Of a stretch of DNA of 64,000 nt, positions 3,595-18,992 are shown piece by piece (the stretch's first letter is position 1; every line of letters starts with the position of its first letter). Location: contig NZ_CP141588.1 in NCBI RefSeq assembly GCF_035594035.1, forward strand, positions 2,944,501 to 3,008,500. Direction: 5' to 3'. Position numbers and translations under genes: made by a program. Source of the DNA: Sphingomonas sp. LY54 (lineage in GTDB: Bacteria; Pseudomonadota; Alphaproteobacteria; Sphingomonadales; Sphingomonadaceae). Below the pieces are notes generated by a model, which saw nothing but the letters and a program-made list of their open reading frames with translations, was not told where the DNA came from and did not search any database.

Positions 3595-4354
3595 GGCGCT
3601 CCGGATTGCGGGAGCATTGCTCCCGCTCGCCCTGATGCTGTTCGTCTTCGCCGACCCGGCGCAGGCGCAGCAGGCCGGCGCGCTCGATCGCGCGGTGAAC
3701 ACGATCGCCGGCGACGGCCGTCCGCTGTCGCTGTCCTTGCAGATCCTGTTGCTGATGAGCCTGCTGACGGTGCTGCCGTCGCTGGTGCTGATGATGACGA
3801 GTTTCACCCGCATCATCATCGTGCTCTCGATCCTGCGCCAGGCGCTCGGCCTGCAGCAGACGCCGCCCAACCAGGTCCTGGTCGGGCTCGCCCTGTTCCT
3901 GTCGATCTTCGTGATGCGGCCGGCGATCGAGCAGATCAACGCCAGCGCCTACACGCCTTATGGCGAGGGACAGATCAGCATCGAGGAAGCGGTCAGCCGC
4001 TCGGGCGACGTGCTCCATGGCTTCATGATCGGGCAGACGCGCGAGACCGATCTCAAACTGTTCGCCGATCTCGCCGAGGTCCCGGCCTTCCGCTCGGCCA
4101 ATGAAGTGCCGTTCTCGATCCTGTTGCCGGCCTTCGTCACCAGCGAGCTCAAGACCGCCTTCCAGATCGGCTTCCTGATCTTCCTGCCGTTCCTGATCAT
4201 CGACCTTGTCGTCGCGTCGACCCTGATGGCGCTCGGCATGATGATGCTGTCGCCGACGATCGTGTCGATGCCGTTCAAGCTCCTCCTCTTCGTCCTCGTC
4301 GACGGCTGGGCGCTGACCATGGGCTCGCTCGCTGCTTCCTTCGCGGGAGGCTGA
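3587..4354 (+). CDS. fliP: Flagellar export-gate protein FliP
   Basis: A 255-residue polytopic inner-membrane protein with a cleavable-looking signal peptide (ALLPLALMLFVFADPAQAQ). It then has the FliP signatures MMTSFTRIIIVLSILRQALG (about residues 67-86) and LLPAFVTSELKTAFQIGF (about residues 181-198), and ends with the last membrane helices LLLFVLVDGWALTMGSL. Five FliP copies form the core of the export channel with FliQ and FliR. The start is GTG at 3587, overlapping fliO. The gene order fliP-fliQ-fliR-flhB matches that of most flagellated bacteria. Confidence 0.95.
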   Translation: MTKALRIAGALLPLALMLFVFADPAQAQQAGALDRAVNTIAGDGRPLSLSLQILLLMSLLTVLPSLVLMMTSFTRIIIVLSILRQALGLQQTPPNQVLVGLALFLSIFVMRPAIEQINASAYTPYGEGQISIEEAVSRSGDVLHGFMIGQTRETDLKLFADLAEVPAFRSANEVPFSILLPAFVTSELKTAFQIGFLIFLPFLIIDLVVASTLMALGMMMLSPTIVSMPFKLLLFVLVDGWALTMGSLAASFAGG

Positions 4355-5408: not shown

Positions 5409-6547
5409 TGTCGAAGGCGCCGGAAAAAGACCAGAAGACGGAGCAGCCGACCGACAAGCGTCGGCGCGACGCGGCGCAGAAGGGCGACGTCCTCCAGTCC
5501 AAGGAGCTCGCCACAGCCCTGGTGATGCTGGCGGGCGCCGCGTGGATGGCGCTGGCCGGGCCGATGCTGGTCGGCACGCTCGAGACGATGCTGATCGACG
5601 GGCTTACCTTCGACGCCGGCGACATCCGCAATTTCGAGCCGCGCGACGCCGCCCTGCGCCTTGCCGGGATCGCGATCGTACCGCTGATCACCCTGTTCGC
5701 CCTGACGATCCTTGCCGCGATCGGATCGTCGGCGATGCTCGGCTCGTTCGGGTTTCGCGCCGGGGCGTTCGCGCCCAAGCCGGAGAAGCTCAATCCGCTT
5801 TCCGGCCTCAAACGCATCTTCGGCGTGCAGGGCCTGATCGAGCTGGTGAAGTCGCTGGCCAAGGTCTGCGTGCTCGGCGCGGTCGGCTACTGGCTGCTCA
5901 ACGACCAGTTCAACCAGATGATGGGGCTCGCCTCGTCGGACGTGCGGCCGGCCATCGTCACGCTCGGCAACACCTTCATCCTGGCCGTCTTGGTCATGGC
6001 GCTGGCGCTGGCGCTGATCGCCCTGATCGACGTGCCCGCCCAGATCTTCCAGCGTGGCGGCCGCCTGCGCATGAGCAAGCAGGAGGTGAAGGACGAGTCC
6101 AAGCAGACCGACGGCTCGCCCGAACTCAAGGCCGCGATCCGCCGCCGCCAGCACGAAGTATTGCGCGGATCGGCGCGGACGGCGGTGCAGGAAGCCACCG
6201 TCGTGCTCACCAACCCGACCCATTTCGCGGTGGCTTTGCGCTATCGCCCGGGCACCGACGCCGCGCCGATCGTGGTCGCGCGGGGTAGGGGCGCGACCGC
6301 CGCCGCCATCCGCGAGCTCGCCGGTGAGCATGAGGTGCCGGTGCTGAGCTATCCGCAGCTCGCGCGCGCCATCTATTACACCGCCCGCACCGGCCAGGTG
6401 ATCCGCGAGGATCTCTACATGGCGGTCGCGACCGTGCTCGCCTTCGTGTTCAATCTCGATCGGATCGTCGCCGAGGGCGGCATCCAGCCCGACATCGAAG
6501 TGCCGACGGGCGCGCGGTTCGACGAGAAGGGCCGCGCGGAAGCTTAA
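5408..6547 (+). CDS. flhB: Flagellar export switch protein FlhB
   Basis: A 379-residue protein. The N-terminal region begins with the standard EKTEQPTDKRRRDAAQKG motif and has four membrane helices up to about residue 215. The cytoplasmic domain carries the autocleavage sequence NPTH (VVLTNPTHFAVALRY, about residues 272-286), where FlhB self-cleaves between Asn and Pro so that export changes from rod/hook to filament substrates. It completes the fliP-Q-R-flhB export-gate set. The C-terminal tail after the cleaved domain is short. Confidence 0.95.
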   Translation: MSKAPEKDQKTEQPTDKRRRDAAQKGDVLQSKELATALVMLAGAAWMALAGPMLVGTLETMLIDGLTFDAGDIRNFEPRDAALRLAGIAIVPLITLFALTILAAIGSSAMLGSFGFRAGAFAPKPEKLNPLSGLKRIFGVQGLIELVKSLAKVCVLGAVGYWLLNDQFNQMMGLASSDVRPAIVTLGNTFILAVLVMALALALIALIDVPAQIFQRGGRLRMSKQEVKDESKQTDGSPELKAAIRRRQHEVLRGSARTAVQEATVVLTNPTHFAVALRYRPGTDAAPIVVARGRGATAAAIRELAGEHEVPVLSYPQLARAIYYTARTGQVIREDLYMAVATVLAFVFNLDRIVAEGGIQPDIEVPTGARFDEKGRAEA

Positions 6548-6591
6548 GCCAGGCGCCGCCGCGCCGTTAATTCACCCGAGGAAGGGAAACC

Positions 6592-8205
6592 ATGGTTTCA
6601 TCGATCGGATACAGCCTCGGCGCCGGCTCTGGCATCGACACCAAGACGCTGGTCGAGGAATTGGCCGCGGCCGCCAAGGCGCCCAAGGAGGCGCTGCTGA
6701 AGCGGCGCGAGGAGCAGAACGGGGCCAAGGTCTCCGCGCTGGCCGAAGTGTCGAACGCAATCGACAGCTTCGCGTCGGCACTTTCGGCGCTGGTTTCGGG
6801 CGGCTCCCTTTTCACCCAGCCGAGCGTGTCGGACCCGACGGTGCTCGGCGCTACCGCCATCGCCGGCAAGGATATCAGCAGCCTTGCCGCCCAACTCGAG
6901 GTGCGCCAGCTGGCGCAGTCGCAGACACTGGAATCGGCCGGCCTGGCGTCGTCCGCCGCAGCGGTCGGCGAGGGCGACCTGACCCTGGTCACCGCGGCCG
7001 GCAGCTTCACCGTCACGATCGATGCCGCCAACAACAGCCTGGCCGGCCTGGCCGACGCGATCAACGCCAAGAAGGCCGGCGTGACGGCCAGCATCGTGAC
7101 GCAGGCCGGCAGCGCGCGTCTGGTGCTGAAGGGCGCCACCGGCGAGATCAATGCCTTCACCCTGGACGTTGCGGGCGGGACGACGAGCGGGCTGGAGCGC
7201 TTCGCGTTCGGCCCGTCCGTGACCGGCGGCCTGACGGCGGCCCAGGAAGCGAAGGATGCCATCGTCCGCCTCGACGGGGTCGAGGTGCGACGCAGCTCGA
7301 ACAGCTTCAACGACCTCATTCCGGGCGTAGAACTCAGCCTCAAGCGGGCCGTGCCGGGCACCACGGTGGCGCTGGGCGTCACCCGTCCCGCTGCAGCGAT
7401 CAGCCAGGCAGTAAACGATTTCGTCACGGCCTATAACGAGCTGCACCGCATGCTCGCCGATGCGACGGCGCCGGCGGGGAAAGCGGGCGGCAATGCCGGT
7501 CCGTTGCGCGGTGATCTCAGCGTCCGCGACATGCAGCGCCAGCTCTCCGCTCTGCCAACCACGGTGCTGAGCTCCACCGGCGGTCCGGCGACCCTCGCGG
7601 AGATCGGTGTCGCCACCAATCGCGACGGCACGCTGCGCGTTCAGGCGGAGACCCTGCAGGCGGCGCTGGCGCGCGACCCGGATGGCGTCGAGGCGATGTT
7701 CAACCCGCGCCAGCACAGCAGCAGCCCGTTGGTTTCGATCGTGAACCGGCCGAACAGCCTGAAGCCCGGGGTCTACACCCTCACGGACCTGCTGCCGAAC
7801 AGCGGCAGTGGGGCCAGCGGCAAGATCAACAATGTGGCGATGACGTCCTCCGGGTCGCGTTTGATCGGGTCGGCGACATCGGCGGCGCCCGGTCTCATCG
7901 TCCAGGTCGACGGCGCCGTTGCGAGCGCCACGCTCACCTTCGATGCCGGGCTCGGCGGTGCTCTCCAGGCGATCCGCGATTCCGTGCGGTCTCGCTCGGG
8001 GTCGATGGCAGGCGCGCAGGAGCGGCTGACCAAGGAAGCCGAGAGGATCGCCGACGACCGCGAGGCGCTCGAGATGCGATCCGAGGCCTATTACAACCAG
8101 CTGGTCAAGAACTTCGCTGCGATGGAGAGGCGCGTGTCGGCCTTCAAGGCGACGCAATCCTACCTGGAGCAGCAGGTGAAGATGTGGACCAGCGGCAACA
8201 ATTGA
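6592..8205 (+). CDS. fliD: Flagellar filament cap protein FliD
   Basis: A 537-residue protein. The N-terminal FliD domain opens with SIGYSLGAGSGIDTKTLVEE, the usual start of filament caps, and the C-terminal FliD domain ends in a long helix containing YYNQLVKNFAAMERRVSAF and YLEQQV. The middle region is variable and Ser/Ala/Thr-rich, as in other caps. FliD forms the cap complex at the filament tip and guides flagellin folding. ATG 6592 has a strong GGAAGGG five bases upstream. A 44-base gap separates it from flhB, so it may have its own promoter. No cysteine is seen, which is typical of exported axial proteins. Confidence 0.9.
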   Translation: MVSSIGYSLGAGSGIDTKTLVEELAAAAKAPKEALLKRREEQNGAKVSALAEVSNAIDSFASALSALVSGGSLFTQPSVSDPTVLGATAIAGKDISSLAAQLEVRQLAQSQTLESAGLASSAAAVGEGDLTLVTAAGSFTVTIDAANNSLAGLADAINAKKAGVTASIVTQAGSARLVLKGATGEINAFTLDVAGGTTSGLERFAFGPSVTGGLTAAQEAKDAIVRLDGVEVRRSSNSFNDLIPGVELSLKRAVPGTTVALGVTRPAAAISQAVNDFVTAYNELHRMLADATAPAGKAGGNAGPLRGDLSVRDMQRQLSALPTTVLSSTGGPATLAEIGVATNRDGTLRVQAETLQAALARDPDGVEAMFNPRQHSSSPLVSIVNRPNSLKPGVYTLTDLLPNSGSGASGKINNVAMTSSGSRLIGSATSAAPGLIVQVDGAVASATLTFDAGLGGALQAIRDSVRSRSGSMAGAQERLTKEAERIADDREALEMRSEAYYNQLVKNFAAMERRVSAFKATQSYLEQQVKMWTSGNN

Positions 8206-8233
8206 GCGGCGCGTCCGCGAGCGGAGACGACGA

Positions 8234-8626
8234 ATGTATATGGCCTCTTCCCGTTTCGGAGCCGCGCGCGCGAGCTACCAGGCGATCGACCTGACCAGCC
8301 GCGTCGAGGGGGCCTCGCCGCAGCAGCTGGTGGCCATCCTGTTCGACGAGCTGATGAAGGGCTTCGATGCATTGCTCGCGGCGGGCGCCAAGCGCGACCG
8401 CGCCCAGATCGCGTCGCACCAGGCGCGCGTCCTCTCGATCCTCGGCGGCCTCGAAGGCAGTCTCGACATGGTGAGCGGCGGCGAGATCGCCCAGAGCCTG
8501 TCGCTTATCTATCGGGAGGCGCGCCGGCTGACCTTGCAGGGCGGACGCGAATGCGACGTCGAGCCGCTGAAGCGGGCGCGCGCCATGCTGGCCGAGATCG
8601 CCAGCGCCTGGAACGAGATTATCTGA
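8234..8626 (+). CDS. fliS: Flagellin export chaperone FliS
   Basis: A 130-residue, mostly helical cytoplasmic protein. It begins YMASSRFGAARASYQAIDL and contains GASPQQLVAILFDELMKGF (about residues 25-43), the FliS N-terminal signature. FliS binds the C-terminus of flagellin to prevent premature polymerisation. GGAG lies seven bases before ATG 8234. The TGA stop at 8624-8626 touches the stop of the convergent sigma-54 regulator at 8627, with no spacer and therefore no room for a terminator between them. Confidence 0.9.
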   Translation: MYMASSRFGAARASYQAIDLTSRVEGASPQQLVAILFDELMKGFDALLAAGAKRDRAQIASHQARVLSILGGLEGSLDMVSGGEIAQSLSLIYREARRLTLQGGRECDVEPLKRARAMLAEIASAWNEII

Positions 8627-9736
8627 TCAGGCCGCTTCGCGGGCGACGAGCCCGTATTTCCGCATCTTCTCGATCAAGGTCGTGCGCTGCAGCGACAGCG
8701 AGCGCGCGGCCTCGGCGACGACACCGTCGGCCTGGCGCAGCGCCTCGCTGATGTAGCGGTGCTCGAGATCGGCGACGATCATGCGCAGGTCGACCGGTTC
8801 GTCGCACGAGAGCCGCACCGCGTTTTCGGGCAGGGCGTCGGCATTGGCGGGAGCCGGGGCAGGCGGGGCAGCGCGCTCGGCGGCCTCCCAGACGGCGGCC
8901 AGCTCGGCCTGGAGGGCGCGTGCATCGCGTTCGACGGCGGGCACGGCGGCGGCGCGGCGGCCACGCGGCTGCAGGATGATCTCCACTTCCTCGGCCGAGA
9001 CGGTCTTGCCGGCAAACAGGATCGTGGCGCGCTCGACGACGTTGCGGAGCTCGCGGACATTGCCGGTCCAGGCATGGCCGACCATCCGGTCCATCGCGGC
9101 CTGGCTCAATTTCACATTGGCCTTGGCCCTGCGCAGGAAATGGCGGACGAGAAGCGGCACGTCCTCGCGGCGCTCGGCCAGCGAGGGCAGATCGATCGGG
9201 AAGACGGCAAGGCGGTAATAGAGATCCTCGCGGAAGCGCTGCTGCTCGATCGCCTCGTCGATGTCGCGATGGGTGGCGGAGACGATGCGGCTGTCGACGG
9301 CGATTTCGCCGCGGCCGCCGACGCGCTGGATGGCGCGCTCTTCGAGAACGCGCAGCAATTTCACCTGCATGTCGGCCGGCATGTCGCCGATCTCGTCTAG
9401 GAAAAGCGTACCCTTGTGCGCTTCCTCGAAGCGACCGCGATGCTGGTTGATCGCGCCGGTGAACGAGCCTTTCTCGTGGCCGAACAATTCGGACTCCAGC
9501 AGGTCGCGCGGGATGGCCCCGGTGTTGACGGCGACGAACGGCTGCGCGGCGCGGTCGCTCTCGGCGTGGATGGCGCGGGCGACCATTTCCTTGCCGCTGC
9601 CCGAAGGGCCGGTGACGATCACGGAGGCGTCGCTCGGCGCGACCTGGCGGACGAGCCGGCGCACTTCGACGATCGCGCGGCTCTCGCCGATCAGCAACGT
9701 CTCCGCCGCAGCGGCGATGTCGTGGCGCATGTCCAT
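8627..9736 (-). CDS. Sigma-54-dependent transcriptional activator, FleQ/FlbD-like, lacking a receiver domain
   Basis: A 369-residue protein. It starts almost directly with the AAA+ sigma-54 interaction domain: Walker A GPSGSGKE at about residue 43, the sigma-54 contact loop as GSFTGA instead of the usual GAFTGA, Walker B TLFLDEIGD, and an R-finger region. It ends with a Fis-type helix-turn-helix (VAEAARSLSLQRTTLIEKMR). There is no N-terminal receiver or other sensory domain, so activity is probably controlled by a partner protein or by level. Position beside fliS suggests it controls late flagellar genes, as FleQ, FlbD and FlgR do elsewhere. The activator class is clear; the flagellar role is inferred. 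Confidence 0.85.
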   Translation of the reverse strand: MDMRHDIAAAAETLLIGESRAIVEVRRLVRQVAPSDASVIVTGPSGSGKEMVARAIHAESDRAAQPFVAVNTGAIPRDLLESELFGHEKGSFTGAINQHRGRFEEAHKGTLFLDEIGDMPADMQVKLLRVLEERAIQRVGGRGEIAVDSRIVSATHRDIDEAIEQQRFREDLYYRLAVFPIDLPSLAERREDVPLLVRHFLRRAKANVKLSQAAMDRMVGHAWTGNVRELRNVVERATILFAGKTVSAEEVEIILQPRGRRAAAVPAVERDARALQAELAAVWEAAERAAPPAPAPANADALPENAVRLSCDEPVDLRMIVADLEHRYISEALRQADGVVAEAARSLSLQRTTLIEKMRKYGLVAREAA

Positions 9737-9764
9737 TCGGCTACTTTCCCCCCGGACCGCTTCG

Positions 9765-9792
9765 TTCGCTTTAGAAAAAAATTTAAAGCGAA
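9765..9792. promoter_or_regulatory. Inverted repeat upstream of the sigma-54 regulator
   Basis: Nine-base arms TTCGCTTTA and TAAAGCGAA flank an A-rich 10-base centre, 29 bases upstream of the regulator's start codon. The A/T-rich centre contrasts with the GC-rich surroundings. It could be an operator for autoregulation or part of the promoter. No U-tract follows on either strand, so a terminator is unlikely. The region 9737-10031 holds no gene. Confidence 0.4.
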
Positions 9793-9872
9793 GCGATGGT
9801 CGGCCGTTATTCCCTCTATAATGGGTATGTTATGCCTCGAATGCGGGGTCGCGGTAAATCATGCATAAGGGC

Positions 9873-9885
9873 AGTCCGCCGGACT
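9873..9885. promoter_or_regulatory. GTCCG/CGGAC dyad 1, upstream of the signalling cluster
   Basis: AGTCCGCCGGACT is a palindrome with six-base arms and a one-base centre. The right half and its flank, CGGACTGTTC, recur as a direct repeat at 9953-9962, and a second dyad lies at 10003-10018. A possible minus-10 box TATAAT is at 9817-9822, with no convincing minus-35. The set lies upstream of the receiver/kinase genes and resembles operator sites for a dimeric regulator. Confidence 0.4.
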
Positions 9886-10002
9886 GTTCATGAGTGCTAG
9901 TACTGCGATCTTGCGGACGGCCTGTGCGTCTGGTGATTTGACTTAGGCGTTTCGGACTGTTCGTTCGACATAGCTCCCGACGCGTCGGCTAGGCCTTGGG
10001 TC

Positions 10003-14665: not shown

Positions 14666-15439
14666 ATGCCTGAGGTCGTATTTGAACGCGCGAGCGAGGC
14701 TTTTCCGCACGTTCGCGACTTCGTGGCCGCGGCGCAAATGGCGGAATCGCTGAAGTCTCTGCAGGAAATGATCAGCCAGGTCTTGCCGCGCTTCGGGCTC
14801 GATTATTTCCTGATGAGCCACCATGTCGATTTCGGCAAGCCGGCCCCCGGGACCGTCCAGATCAGCAATTATCCGGCCGAGTTCGTCGCCGTTCAGCGCG
14901 AGCATGGCGGGTGGCGCGACGACCCCGTGCTGCTGGCCTGCGAGAAGACGACAGCGGGCTTTTTCTGGTCGGATGTGGTCACGATGATGCCGCTCACCGA
15001 CCATCACCGCAGCCGTTTCGAGATCGGCCGCCGCTATGGCCTCGCCGACAGCTTCGTCGTGCCGAACCACATACCGGGCGAATATAGCGGCTCGGTCCAT
15101 TTCACGGTCGGCCCGAGCCGGCCCTTTCCGCGCCATCTCGCGCCGGCGCTGCAGTCGTTCGCCACTTACGGCTTCGAAGCGGCGCGCCGGCTGGCGCGGA
15201 CCCATGACGGATCAACGCTGAACAGCGTGCCGCTCACCGACCGGCAGATCGACTGCGTGCTATTGTCCGCACGCGGCAAGAGCGACACCGACATCGCGCA
15301 ACTGCTCGGCCTCACCCGGCGCACGGTCAACGAATATATCGAGGGCGCGAAGCGCCGCTACTGCGTCGCCACGCGGCAGCAGCTGATCGTGCGGGCCCTG
15401 TTCAACTCCCAGATCACCTTCTCGCAGGTATTGCAGTAA
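14666..15439 (+). CDS. LuxR-family quorum-sensing regulator with autoinducer-binding domain
   Basis: A 257-residue protein with the two-domain LuxR layout. The N-terminal autoinducer-binding domain (about residues 15-175) has WRDDPVLLACE, matching the conserved W-x2-D-P motif that contacts acyl-homoserine lactone. The C-terminal LuxR helix-turn-helix (about residues 190-250) has LTDRQIDCVLLSARGKSDTD and LTRRTVNEYIEGAKRRY. It lies 1.5 kb from a luxI-type synthase gene, so the two are a cognate pair by context. No clear Shine-Dalgarno sequence precedes ATG 14666. Its last 26 bases overlap the 3' end of the convergent P450 gene. Confidence 0.88.
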   Translation: MPEVVFERASEAFPHVRDFVAAAQMAESLKSLQEMISQVLPRFGLDYFLMSHHVDFGKPAPGTVQISNYPAEFVAVQREHGGWRDDPVLLACEKTTAGFFWSDVVTMMPLTDHHRSRFEIGRRYGLADSFVVPNHIPGEYSGSVHFTVGPSRPFPRHLAPALQSFATYGFEAARRLARTHDGSTLNSVPLTDRQIDCVLLSARGKSDTDIAQLLGLTRRTVNEYIEGAKRRYCVATRQQLIVRALFNSQITFSQVLQ

Positions 15440-16832
15440 CCCTGGCCTCCAGCCGTCCGCGCGGACGGCAATTGGGCCAGTGATACCAGCGCGCCGCGTC
15501 CGGATTGACGATGCGCAATTCCGCCTTCGAGAAAAGGCGGGTCATGAAGATCCGCGCTTGCTGCTGCGAGAAATGCAGCCCGAGGCATTTGTGGACGCCG
15601 CCGCCGAACGGCACGAACGCGTGCTTGTGCCGCAGGGCCTCGGCCTCCGGCGTGAAGCGGTGCGGGTTGAAATCGAGCGGATCGGGCCAAATTTCCGGAT
15701 CGAGATGGACCAGCATCGGGCTGACGCCGGTGATCGTGCCGGCCGGCAGGTCGTAGCCGTAGATGCTGTAGGGCCGCGTCGCGCGGCGCCAGATCACCGG
15801 CGCCGTGGCGTTGAGGCGCAGCGCCTCCTTGAAGCTCATGTCCTGCAGCGGCAGATCGGCCAAAGCCGCATCGACCGGTTGCGCCAGGCCGGCGCTGTCG
15901 ATCTCGGCGCGGATGCAGTCCTGCCACCAGCGGCCTCGCCCGAGATAATAAAGCGTCGAGGTGAGGCCCGAAGCCATCGTGTCGTGGGCTGCGGCCAGCA
16001 GGAAGATGATGCTGTTGAGGATCTCGTCGTCGCTGAGCCGGGTGCCGTCCTCGTCCTCGAGATGGCAGATGCGCGAGAGGATGTCGTCGCCCGGATTGGC
16101 GCGCTTCTCCGCGATCAGATCGAGGATGAAGGCCTCGAGGAAAGCCTTCCCCTGATAGCCGCGCGCGGCGACGGGGCTCAGCCAGCGATTGTGGCCGAGG
16201 GCGGTCAGCGCCGTCATCATGCGGGCGAAGGCCTTCATCGCCGCATCGGTGCGGCCTCCGATTTCGATACCGAGGAAGGTCGAGGCCGCGATCCGCAGCG
16301 TCAGCCGCTTCACCTCGTCATAGACGTCGATGGTGCGGCCGATCCAGCTGTCGACCGTGCGGGCGATTTCGGCGTCGAGCAAAGCCTGGTAGCCGGCCAG
16401 CTTCTGCTGGCGGAAGGCCTCGCCGAGGATGCGGCGGTTGGCGCGGTGGCGCTCGCCGTCCTGGATCAGCAGGGCGCCGGGGAAGAAGGGTTCGATCACC
16501 GGCGACCAGCCGCCCCATGCCGAGAAGCTGCTGTCGCGGTCGAACAATACCAGCTCGTTGGCCTCGGGCCCGATGATCTGCACGTTCCAGCTGCCGCATG
16601 CGTAGAAGCGGTACACGCGACCGTGGCGCGCGTGCATCCGCCGCGCAAAGCCGATCGGATCGAGCACCGCCTCGGGCAGGATACCGAGCAAGGGCAGGCC
16701 CTTCTTGCCCGGAATATGGGCGAGCTCGCGAGCGCCCGGCTTGCCGATCCGGTCGAATGCCGAGGCGTCCGAATGCCAGCGCCGGCCACGGTCGGCGCCC
16801 GCAAAGGCCAAAGCCGGTGTCATCTGGTTCAT
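15414..16832 (-). CDS. Cytochrome P450
   Basis: A 472-residue soluble P450. The haem-binding loop is FGGGVHKCLG with the axial Cys at about residue 416, the K-helix E-x-x-R is FKEALR, and the I-helix oxygen-activation motif is AAHDT. There is no N-terminal membrane anchor, as in most bacterial P450s. The sequence LIQDGERHRANRRILGEAF and the overall size suggest relation to CYP120/CYP26-like or CYP51-like hydroxylases of lipophilic substrates. No ferredoxin or reductase gene is adjacent. GGAGG lies five bases before the start. It sits between luxR and luxI, divergent from luxI across a shared dyad, so it is probably quorum-regulated and may modify the signal or a signal-dependent product. Confidence 0.88.
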   Translation of the reverse strand: MNQMTPALAFAGADRGRRWHSDASAFDRIGKPGARELAHIPGKKGLPLLGILPEAVLDPIGFARRMHARHGRVYRFYACGSWNVQIIGPEANELVLFDRDSSFSAWGGWSPVIEPFFPGALLIQDGERHRANRRILGEAFRQQKLAGYQALLDAEIARTVDSWIGRTIDVYDEVKRLTLRIAASTFLGIEIGGRTDAAMKAFARMMTALTALGHNRWLSPVAARGYQGKAFLEAFILDLIAEKRANPGDDILSRICHLEDEDGTRLSDDEILNSIIFLLAAAHDTMASGLTSTLYYLGRGRWWQDCIRAEIDSAGLAQPVDAALADLPLQDMSFKEALRLNATAPVIWRRATRPYSIYGYDLPAGTITGVSPMLVHLDPEIWPDPLDFNPHRFTPEAEALRHKHAFVPFGGGVHKCLGLHFSQQQARIFMTRLFSKAELRIVNPDAARWYHWPNCRPRGRLEARVTAIPARR

Positions 16833-16887
16833 GGTCGCCTCCGCGCTGTTGAGGTGCTTGTCTCATGCTCGGATGCGACCGTTCCAC

Positions 16888-16903
16888 CCCGGTAACTACC
16901 GGG
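16888..16903. promoter_or_regulatory. Lux-box-like 16-bp dyad between P450 and luxI
   Basis: CCCGGTAACTACCGGG has perfect seven-base arms around AC. Its centre lies 45 bases before ATG 16941 of luxI and 63 bases before the P450 start on the other strand. LuxR-type activators commonly bind 16-20-bp dyads centred near minus 42, so one site could drive both genes. If so, luxI transcription would start only a few bases before its first ATG. Confidence 0.55.
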
Positions 16904-16940
16904 ATTAAGTCGTTGGCCTCTCCGATTTACGCTACGGCCC

Positions 16941-17576
16941 ATGAAGAAGGCGATGCAGATCGAGGTCGTCCATCCGGAGGACAGGTGGACGTTCAGCCGG
17001 CCGCTGATGGAGATGCACCATCATCGCAAGCAGGTCTTCGTCGACCGGCTCGACTGGCAGCTCTCGTCGCGCGGGAGCTGGCTCGAGATCGACCAATTCG
17101 ACGACGAATATGCGGTCTACATCATGGCCGTAGCCCACGAGACCGGGCGGCATCTCGGGTCGGTGCGGCTGCTGCCGACCACCCGGCCGCATATGCTCAG
17201 TACCATCTTTGCCGATCTCTGCCCCGATGGCGCGCCGACGGGCGAAAGCGTGTGGGAAATTTCCCGCTTCGTCGCCGCGCCCGACGGAGGCGCCGGCACC
17301 AACATCCTGCGCGTCCACCGCCGCCTGGCCTGGGGTCTCGTCGATTTCGCCCGACGCAATGGCATCGACCGATACACCTTGGTGGCGGAGGCGCAGCGCG
17401 TGCCGGCCCTGCTGTCCGTTGGGTGGACCGTCGCGCCTCTGTCGCTGCCGACGCTGCACGACGGCCAACTGATCGAGGCGCTGGAGATCGTCATCGACGC
17501 GGAGTCGATCGCCCGCATGGAGCGGCGCCAGGCCGGCGTCATCGAGAATGGCGAGCCGATGAGGAGCGCGGCATGA
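16941..17576 (+). CDS. LuxI-type acyl-homoserine lactone synthase
   Basis: A 211-residue GNAT-fold autoinducer synthase. The LuxI-family pattern is present: MHHHRKQVFVDRLDW (conserved R, F and W near the N-terminus), then EIDQFDDEYAVYI, GSVRLLPTTRPHML, and VWEISRFVAAP, which carries the catalytic-region E and R. These enzymes join S-adenosylmethionine to an acyl group from acyl-ACP or acyl-CoA. The sequence does not tell which acyl group is used. ATG 16941 has no clear ribosome site. ATG 16953 has GAAGAAGG just upstream and may be the real start. The stop overlaps the phyH start (ATGA). Confidence 0.88.
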   Translation: MKKAMQIEVVHPEDRWTFSRPLMEMHHHRKQVFVDRLDWQLSSRGSWLEIDQFDDEYAVYIMAVAHETGRHLGSVRLLPTTRPHMLSTIFADLCPDGAPTGESVWEISRFVAAPDGGAGTNILRVHRRLAWGLVDFARRNGIDRYTLVAEAQRVPALLSVGWTVAPLSLPTLHDGQLIEALEIVIDAESIARMERRQAGVIENGEPMRSAA

Positions 17577-18454
17577 ACGCGCCCTGGCTTCCGCCCCGGC
17601 CGAGCGCTGCCGACGAGGCGGGGCGGCAATTGCTGGGCGAAGGCTACTGCATCCTGCGTGCGCTCGTTCCTCCGAAGGAGGTCGCGGCCCTGGCCGCCGA
17701 CTTCGATGCTCGTTTCGAACGGATCGGCCGGTGCGACGGATTCTTCTTCGGCCACAGCACAAAGCGTTTCCATGCTCTGCTGACGCGCAGCGCGCGGACC
17801 GCCGGCTTCGTGCTCAATCCCCTCATCCTCGATCTGGTCGATCGGGCGCTGCTGCCGCATTGCGACCGGGTCCAGCTCAATCTCACCCAGGCGATCGAGA
17901 TATTGCCCGGCGAGCGCGCGCAGGCGCCGCACCGGGACCAGGACATGTGGCAGCGGCCGGTCGCCGGGATCGAATATCTGGTCAACGTGATGTGGCCGCT
18001 CACCCCCTTTACCGCCGAGAACGGCGCGACGCGCCTGTGGCCCGGCACCAACCACGATCTCGCCGAGCGCCGCGTCCCGATGTCCGAGGCCGTGGTGGCG
18101 GAGATGGAGCCCGGGGACGCCCTGCTCTACCTCGGCTCGGTGGTCCACGGCGCCGGCGCCAACCGGTCGGCTGCGCCGCGGCGCGGCATGGTGATCAGCT
18201 ACGCGCTCGGCTGGCTCAAGCAGTTCGAGAATATGAGCCTTACTTATCCACCGCATGTCGCGCGCCATTTCCCGCGGCAGCTGACCGACCTGATCGGCTA
18301 TCGCCGCCACAATGCCAATCTCGGCAGCTATGATGGAAATTGCCCGTCGCGGCTGCTCGACGGCGAAACCGATTTCCTCGCCGCGACCGAGAACATGACG
18401 TCCGAGCAGCAGGCGATCCTCGAGCAGTTCGCGGCGCGCCAGGACTGGTCATGA
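17573..18454 (+). CDS. Phytanoyl-CoA dioxygenase (PhyH) family Fe(II)/2-oxoglutarate oxygenase
   Basis: A 293-residue protein with a double-stranded beta-helix fold. The iron triad is HRDQD (His at about 120, Asp at about 122) and SVVHGAGANRS (His at about 192); the Arg expected to hold 2-oxoglutarate follows the second His. PhyH enzymes hydroxylate lipid-like or CoA/ACP-bound substrates. ATG 17573 overlaps the luxI stop and has GGAG six bases upstream, so the two genes are translationally coupled. This makes a role in maturing the quorum signal or its acyl precursor a reasonable inference, together with the P450. The substrate is unknown. Confidence 0.85.
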   Translation: MNAPWLPPRPSAADEAGRQLLGEGYCILRALVPPKEVAALAADFDARFERIGRCDGFFFGHSTKRFHALLTRSARTAGFVLNPLILDLVDRALLPHCDRVQLNLTQAIEILPGERAQAPHRDQDMWQRPVAGIEYLVNVMWPLTPFTAENGATRLWPGTNHDLAERRVPMSEAVVAEMEPGDALLYLGSVVHGAGANRSAAPRRGMVISYALGWLKQFENMSLTYPPHVARHFPRQLTDLIGYRRHNANLGSYDGNCPSRLLDGETDFLAATENMTSEQQAILEQFAARQDWS

Positions 18455-18500
18455 CCACCTGGAACCCCCCTTTTCCGACCACAATCCAGAGGGAGCTGGA

Positions 18501-18992
18501 ATGATGGAGATGTTGTCGCCTGTCGCGGAATCGCGGATGGACTATGTCGAGCCGGCCCGCCCGCTCAGGACCCGATTCCAGCCTGAACATTGGATGCTGT
18601 GCGCCGCGCGCCGGTCCTATGCGGGGCGGCGCGAGCGGGAGCGGCTGTTCGGCGGGGCTTTGTTCGCCGATCCCGTGTGGGACATTCTCCTCTACCTGTT
18701 CATCGCGGCCGGGGAGGGGCGCCATGTCAGCGTTAGCGAAGTCTGCTCGGCGGCTTCGGTTCCGGCGACGACGGCGTTGCGCAACATCGCCCACATGACC
18801 GACCGCAAGCTGCTCATCCGCTGCGCCAACCCGGAGGACCGCAGGAGCAGCCACCTCAAGCTCAGCGCCGCCGCTCTCGAGAAGATGGCCTTGTGCTTCG
18901 TCGCCGGCCTGCGCGCCCGAACCGAACCGGACATGGATGGCGTGCCCGCCAACGATCGCGCGAGCGGCGAATCTGGCTTCTTCATGCCCTGA
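18501..18992 (+). CDS. MarR-like winged-helix DNA-binding protein
   Basis: A 163-residue protein with one winged helix-turn-helix (about residues 55-135): FADPVWDILLYLFIAAGEGR, VSVSEVCSAASVPATTALRN, and the wing NPEDRRSSHLKLS. The arrangement is that of small sphingomonad winged-helix proteins often annotated as MarR-like. It has no ligand domain beyond the flanking helices. GGGAG lies five bases upstream of ATG 18501. It follows phyH by 46 bases in the same direction and probably belongs to the luxI-phyH transcript, as a second-tier regulator of the locus. Confidence 0.7.
   Translation: MMEMLSPVAESRMDYVEPARPLRTRFQPEHWMLCAARRSYAGRRERERLFGGALFADPVWDILLYLFIAAGEGRHVSVSEVCSAASVPATTALRNIAHMTDRKLLIRCANPEDRRSSHLKLSAAALEKMALCFVAGLRARTEPDMDGVPANDRASGESGFFMP

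Follow-up and report, generated by a model that had tools for sequence, protein, structure and literature searches.

Why should a cytochrome P450 gene and a gene for a PhyH-type oxygenase lie among the genes of a quorum-sensing locus? The question is raised by a 64,000-nucleotide stretch of the Sphingomonas sp. LY54 genome (contig NZ_CP141588.1, positions 2,944,501 to 3,008,500; hereafter the window), in which open reading frame (ORF) coordinates and Pfam matches give the order luxR> <P450 luxI> phyH> marR>, the last gene being marR-like. This compact order, set out in a preliminary description of the DNA, was confirmed: all five genes lie at the positions it gave, each with a Pfam match. The overlaps that it claimed are exact to the base, luxR and P450 overlapping tail to tail by 26 bases (15414-15439) and luxI and phyH by 4 bases (17573-17576). 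The cassette is a unit that has been retained as such in relatives, with a common palindrome, intact active-site motifs and an altered receptor pocket, and the best explanation is that the P450, and in most loci also the PhyH-type oxygenase, belong to the signalling unit of a compact LuxI/LuxR cassette. Sphingomonads that carry it may signal with a chemically altered molecule.

The host genome is a single contig of 3,282,853 bases in which a genome search finds one luxI and two P450 genes. Chance adjacency of P450 and luxI is ruled out by these counts and by the recurrence of the order in relatives: since the cassette proteins there are just 34-60% identical to those of the window (LuxI 50-60%, P450 38-53%, PhyH 43-50%, LuxR 44-53%, MarR 34-54%), more than chance is involved. 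That P450 and phyH should accompany luxI in related genomes, named beforehand as the point on which the idea could fail, was found from either side, with the same five genomes recovered by a P450-first and a luxI-first search. Each covered 397 genomes of the family (the two samples are taken as identical because their tallies agree: 397; 360; 96 genera), and the flanks fetched were at most 1.5 kb, some ended by contig ends.

From the P450 side, the best 150 places were listed and 30 loci fetched. Four of the five best matches after the window are cassettes (G083, G252, G142 and G203; 42-44% identity) with the arrangement luxR> <P450 luxI> phyH>. The fifth, G337 (44%), is placed by the tree in a separate paralogue clade, so score alone cannot separate a cassette P450 from a paralogue. 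None of the 25 non-cassette P450s fetched (G337 and 24 others) has luxI within its flank. The family has many such P450s, with 38-44% identity to that of the cassette (at least 145 places among the matches listed), and 347/397 genomes have some P450 match at E 0.001. The luxI-first model was built from nine cassette LuxIs, and the same five genomes scored 341-373 bits, the next match reaching 208; as these five contributed to the model, their scores are inevitably inflated, which has no effect on the neighbourhoods. The 30 best loci fetched were the five cassettes and 25 others, and no P450 lies in the fetched flank of the latter. When the whole class was searched for the P450 (385 genomes, with at most four candidates scored per genome), a further 11 P450s reached E <=1e-110, one of them from the window's family, and none has luxI in the flank of up to 1.5 kb fetched. 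Five plasmid relatives of the P450 were found at 33-38% identity; the best (Sulfitobacter), which alone was inspected, has no luxI annotated within 6 kb.

Nine cassette loci were identified in three genera, seven of them with all five genes (window, L088, L107, L218-L221), and the P450 lies between luxR and luxI in 7/7 complete cassettes. The window's genus is represented by 26 genomes, 15 with luxI. The arrangement is present there also in G005 and G007; in G004 (L109) the P450 is cut by the contig end, and G021 probably carries the cassette too, its contig starting 91 bases before luxI, so that any P450 would lie beyond the edge. Other luxI loci of this genus, a second one in G005 included, are without P450. 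The cassette was further found in 3/3 genomes of genus g115 and 1/2 of genus g56. Over all 159 luxI loci (154 distinct, five being surplus identical copies; 28 weaker places from the order-wide luxI search were not fetched as neighbourhoods), a P450 lies within 600 bases of luxI in 16, a rate biased upward because L218-L221 entered via the P450-first search.

The nine cassette LuxIs form one clade among the 159 sequences (0.999; ultrafast bootstrap [UFBoot] 99 on eight, in a smaller set). The cassette LuxRs (7/7) likewise form one clade (0.931; 89), as do the P450s (0.928 on eight; 87 on seven); the MarR proteins do not. The luxI trees were built without L049-L077, L222-L251 and the repeats L090 (of L005) and L101 (of L010), and the UFBoot trees without L109. 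The trees point to one origin of the nine cassette loci, followed by retention as a unit.

Between the P450 gene and luxI there is a palindrome, CCCGGTAACTACCGGG in the window, with the pattern CCCGGTA-NN-TACCGGG. Its centre is 57.5 bp from the probable luxI start (ATG 16953, judged from alignment with eight relatives) and 63.5 bp from the P450 start. The palindrome is exact in 7/9 cassette loci, recurring at the equivalent place in L107, L109 and L218-L221 with variation in just the two centre bases, and variants are present in L088 and L106 (GGGGTAGTTACCC and GGGGTGATTACCC). Across the seven exact-site loci the centre is 57-74 bp from the luxI start; the distance to the P450 start is 57-72 bp, excluding L109 (102 bp) and L221 (start not settled). 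When 17 genomes were scanned, the exact site was found once in each of seven, all of which carry the cassette; the remaining ten have none, and two of them (G005 and G021) carry cassette loci with a variant; 0.044 exact matches per genome are expected from base composition. Eight one-mismatch sites were found elsewhere, six within crude ORF calls and two intergenic. From its position, symmetry and conservation, we infer that the palindrome is a LuxR site. A wider LuxR regulon on the exact site was not found among the 17 genomes, as each positive genome has a single one.

Both signalling proteins have residues that set the cassette apart. The canonical catalytic residues of LuxI (equivalents of R24, F28, W34, E43, D45, D48, R68, F82, E97 and R100) are kept in 9/9 cassette loci in the alignment. 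In addition, Trp47 is present in 9/9 cassette LuxIs versus 0/142 others, and Arg153 in 9/9 versus 2/140. The cassette LuxR, encoded in the same locus as luxI, has both the autoinducer-binding and the GerE domain. Phe73, Gln77 and Arg78 of the window LuxR correspond to Trp57, Tyr61 and position 62 of TraR, and lie on a single helix (71-79) in the predicted model; D70, P71 and W85 (TraR numbering) are retained, while W57 is changed to Phe and Y61 to Gln. Phe occupies pocket position 57 in 6/7 cassette LuxRs, position 61 is without an aromatic residue in 7/7 (Q, S, I or L), and Arg62 is invariant among them. Trp57 is present in 75/80 distinct LuxRs of luxI-phyH loci, being absent there too from 5/80, and in 39/42 of the other LuxRs. 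W57 and Y61 touch the ligand, and changes at these positions are the hallmark of LuxR solos believed to respond to plant compounds and not to acyl-homoserine lactones (AHLs) (PMC3821632).

The active-site motifs of the two oxygenases are intact. P450 hallmarks are the haem-cysteine motif FxxGxxxCxG, ExxR and the I-helix acid; the window P450 has FGGGVHKCLG, KEALR and AAHDT, and the haem motif is intact in all seven full-length cassette P450s. A redox partner is not among the five cassette genes, and no genome-wide search for one was made. The PhyH iron-ligand motif HxD...H is intact in the window (HRDQDMW and HGAGANRS), with equivalents in 8/8 cassette PhyHs. A marR homologue lies downstream of luxI in 9/9 cassette loci; in L109 (2220-2490) the marR match starts 270 bases past the end of the luxI match, with no detectable phyH between.

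A P450 adjoins luxI in a second group of loci. These eight loci (L079, L080, L120, L082, L083, L085, L097 and L131; families f2, f6 and f7) have the order luxR> luxI> P450>, followed by phyH in two (L080 and L120). Their P450s make up a separate clade and are about 22% identical to the P450 of the window (15% in the partial L131). When a second-group P450 was used as the query in 196 genomes of the order, the seven best matches (37-100% identity) all lay directly beside luxI, and none of the 23 further loci fetched has luxI in its flank. In 5/7 second-group genomes (G041, G054, G446, G059 and G036) the P450 is the sole one found by a PF00067 search. As two unrelated P450 clades occur in luxI loci, a P450 came to adjoin luxI at least twice. 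In 7/8 of the second-group loci a short related protein of about 60-100 aa was seen by eye between luxI and the P450, and G444:C67, one of the 23 further loci, looks like the second half of a P450 whose first half adjoins luxI at a contig end.

Loci with luxR, luxI and phyH have been published for Novosphingobium, Sphingobium and Sphingopyxis (Gan et al. 2013, PMC3704786; 2015, PMC4288048; 2016, PMC5012321), and the preliminary description was right in recalling luxI-phyH as known from sphingomonads. Hao et al. 2010 also dealt with such loci, and phyH was earlier taken as quorum-regulated (as cited in PMC3704786). The window has in common with these loci luxR, luxI and then phyH on the same strand, and a regulator gene after phyH occurs in published loci too (PMC5012321). 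However, luxR and luxI are adjacent in the published loci, whereas the cassette has the P450 between them; the term P450 is absent from PMC3704786, PMC4288048 and PMC5012321; and the 82 distinct luxIs of the luxI-phyH loci sampled here all fall outside the cassette LuxI clade. Topology T (luxR-luxR-luxI-phyH-X-virB; PMC4288048) has tandem luxRs and virB downstream, unlike the window, with its one luxR and a BCCT transporter gene after marR. A P450 within a luxI-phyH locus was not found in print by a search that was thin on subscription papers, and the available passages of PMC6374434 draw no link between a P450 and such a locus.

The chemistry of related systems is partly known. When luxI was cloned alone in Agrobacterium from three Novosphingobium phyH loci, two gave hydroxylated AHLs (OH-AHLs; C8-OH and C10-OH in one case, C8-OH to C12-OH in the other) and the third gave C8, C10 and C12 only (PMC5012321). 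As a general rule, PhyH as the necessary hydroxylase for OH-AHLs is therefore ruled out, and the reaction of the oxygenase accompanying luxI in sphingomonads is described as "yet to be described" (PMC5012321). CYP102A1 of Bacillus/Priestia megaterium oxidises AHL acyl chains (Chowdhary 2007, as cited in PMC5479921 and PMC12501872), which is the reaction proposed here for the cassette, and the oxidised AHLs are reported to be about 18-fold less active (as cited in PMC12501872). CYP102A1 is a Gram-positive enzyme that lowers signal activity, whereas the cassette P450 shares a palindrome-bearing gap with luxI. Rhodobacteraceae strain MOLA 401 makes AHLs with two or three hydroxyls, for which its authors hypothesise a P450; in the available passages the P450 is merely noted in the genome, with no linked locus or mutant (PMC5479921). 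The plant-associated LuxR solos (W57M, Y61W; PMC3821632) are substituted at positions 57 and 61, as is the cassette LuxR. Unlike these solos, which are without a cognate luxI, the cassette LuxR has its own luxI and the residues F57 and Q/S/I/L61.

Which role the oxygenases have is a matter of weighing. The linkage, the common palindrome and the altered receptor together make oxidation of the signal the role that we hold likeliest, with guarded confidence, ahead of the making of a quorum-controlled product and, third, of signal turnover. The preliminary description had proposed that the two enzymes hydroxylate the acyl chain of the autoinducer or its precursor, and that proposal is thus supported in part. 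In the favoured reading, LuxI would make an AHL; signal-bound LuxR would occupy the one palindrome in the P450-luxI gap and activate both arms, with the P450 transcribed to the left and luxI-phyH-marR to the right; the P450, perhaps aided by PhyH, would oxidise an acyl chain, either that of the signal itself or that of its acyl-carrier-protein or coenzyme A precursor; and the LuxR pocket would be matched to the oxidised product. A bolder form, which we put forward as a tentative and rather doubtful one, is a new class of signal: the P450 would oxidise the LuxI acyl chain (to a hydroxyl, or further, e.g. to a terminal carboxyl), only the oxidised molecule would fit a LuxR pocket roofed by Phe57, the invariant Arg62 and, at 61, a residue that is small or polar, and the P450 would have been recruited to luxI on two independent occasions as an enzyme that completes the signal. 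Should this hold, the range of AHL signals would extend beyond what LuxI can draw from fatty-acid metabolism: an oxygenase dedicated to the task and controlled from the same site would complete them, and the bacteria would have a private channel to which the usual AHL biosensors could be blind. The cassette would also be a genetically linked candidate for making poly-oxygenated AHLs, the enzyme for which has so far been guessed (PMC5479921). It provides the receptor, the control site and the pair of promoters with which signal oxidation could be tested, and is relevant to the question of why luxI in sphingomonads is so often joined by an oxygenase gene.

The common palindrome fits equally well with an output role, in which P450 and PhyH would be under quorum control, would oxidise a lipid or terpenoid product other than the signal at high density, and would lie in the locus only for the sake of LuxR control. 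The earlier view of phyH as quorum-regulated (Hao 2010, as cited in PMC3704786) is in keeping with this. So are the names of the nearest solved sequences, which on general knowledge we take to be enzymes of isoprenoid or meroterpenoid substrates: 2ve3, named P450 120, for the window P450 and the fungal PrhA, AusE and AndA for the window PhyH, all remote. We nevertheless think an output role unlikely: some residues of the receptor and of the synthase are specific to the cassette, another P450 clade, unrelated to this one, also took its place beside luxI, and no other pathway gene was seen retained between genera, as the only genes in common outside the five, on crude gene calls in the fetched stretches, are a sigma-54 activator and one 40-residue match (L218/L220). 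Less probable still is a turnover role, in which the site that activates luxI would also activate the P450, and the P450 would inactivate or weaken the AHL, closing a negative feedback loop within the locus. Joint control of the two divergent genes, P450 and luxI, would fit such a loop, and CYP102A1 sets a precedent in products reported to be about 18-fold less active (as cited in PMC12501872); however, turnover leaves the changed receptor pocket and the cassette-specific LuxI residues unexplained, and the overlap of phyH with the synthase gene speaks against it. That the P450 is a passive neighbour, inserted once and kept without a functional link, seems very improbable when the order has held across three genera despite strong divergence, the palindrome is conserved in the P450-luxI gap, the haem motif is intact in 7/7 full-length P450s and a second luxI-P450 pairing exists. 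What favours a passive P450 is the single origin within a clade, by which the nine loci are not nine independent events.

The same single origin is one of several points that weigh against signal oxidation, as it means that the counts given above are not independent. The exact 16-bp palindrome precedes luxI also in two loci of genus g106, L139 (G133, 3869-3884) and L310 (G247, near 1405), neither with a P450 or phyH in the stretch fetched, so that the palindrome is not strictly cassette-specific. The L139 LuxR is sister of the cassette LuxR clade (16-sequence tree, support 98) and its locus has the site without a P450, which suggests that the palindrome is older than the P450 in the locus. This LuxR also has a changed position 61 and Arg62, so the origin of these changes may be separate from that of the P450. 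Trp57 is retained in one cassette LuxR (L107). The LuxRs of the second group mostly have the usual pocket (Trp57 in 7/8, an aromatic residue at 61 in 8/8); a luxI-linked P450 alone thus does not imply a changed one. As for the enzymes, the I-helix Thr is replaced by Ala in 4/7 full-length cassette P450s (L107, L219, L220 and L221); Ala in this place beside the conserved acid is as in some P450s that use a substrate hydroxyl in catalysis. The nearest solved relatives of both oxygenases, being remote and acting on other substrates, fix no substrate here. PhyH is not needed for ordinary OH-AHLs, as two luxIs cloned alone made them. Nor does it seem obligatory in the cassette: the PhyHs form no single clade across cassettes, and no phyH was found between luxI and marR in L109 (G004), in which P450 and luxI have been kept without it, unless the contig is misassembled. 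Finally, the LuxI tree pairs the window with L218-L221 (UFBoot 67) whereas the P450 and LuxR trees pair it with L088 (98 and 97), and this disagreement means that the cassette may have recombined, with parts exchanged.

Table 1. Features of the cassette, with their positions in the window.
Feature	Position	Strand	Basis
luxR, autoinducer-binding receptor/regulator	14666-15439	+	PF03472 5.8e-20; PF00196 7.1e-7
Cytochrome P450, 472 aa	15414-16832	-	PF00067 1.7e-58
Lux-box-like palindrome CCCGGTA-AC-TACCGGG	16888-16903	strandless	Position, symmetry, conservation
luxI, AHL synthase	16941-17576	+	PF00765 4.5e-22
phyH, Fe(II)/2-oxoglutarate oxygenase	17573-18454	+	PF05721 1.7e-28
marR-like regulator, final gene of the cassette	18501-18992	+	PF12802 8e-8

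Two further loci have unusual arrangements. L113 (G037, 5753-9949), counted here among the luxI-phyH loci, has luxR, a luxI frame with an internal stop, a weak phyH-like gene and then a P450, making a third luxI-P450 neighbourhood; its P450 is near a widespread paralogue, and in its LuxR positions 57 and 61 are occupied by Leu and Arg, respectively. In L010 (Hankyongella ginsenosidimutans, 7941-9445), luxI and part of phyH lie in a single 489-codon frame and the remainder of phyH in another, which is a fusion, a frameshift or a sequencing error; this ORF scored higher as phyH, and L010 and its repeat L101 are thus outside the luxI set.

By Pfam, a gene for a GntR-type regulator lies upstream of the window cassette. 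The three g115 loci have several flanking genes in common on crude gene calls. The sigma-54 activator of the window (8627-9736) is 62% identical to that of L220 (11005-12072); it adjoins luxR in L219-L221, and in the window its place is next to fliS (8234-8626), about 5 kb upstream of the cassette, where a tie to flagellar control is possible.

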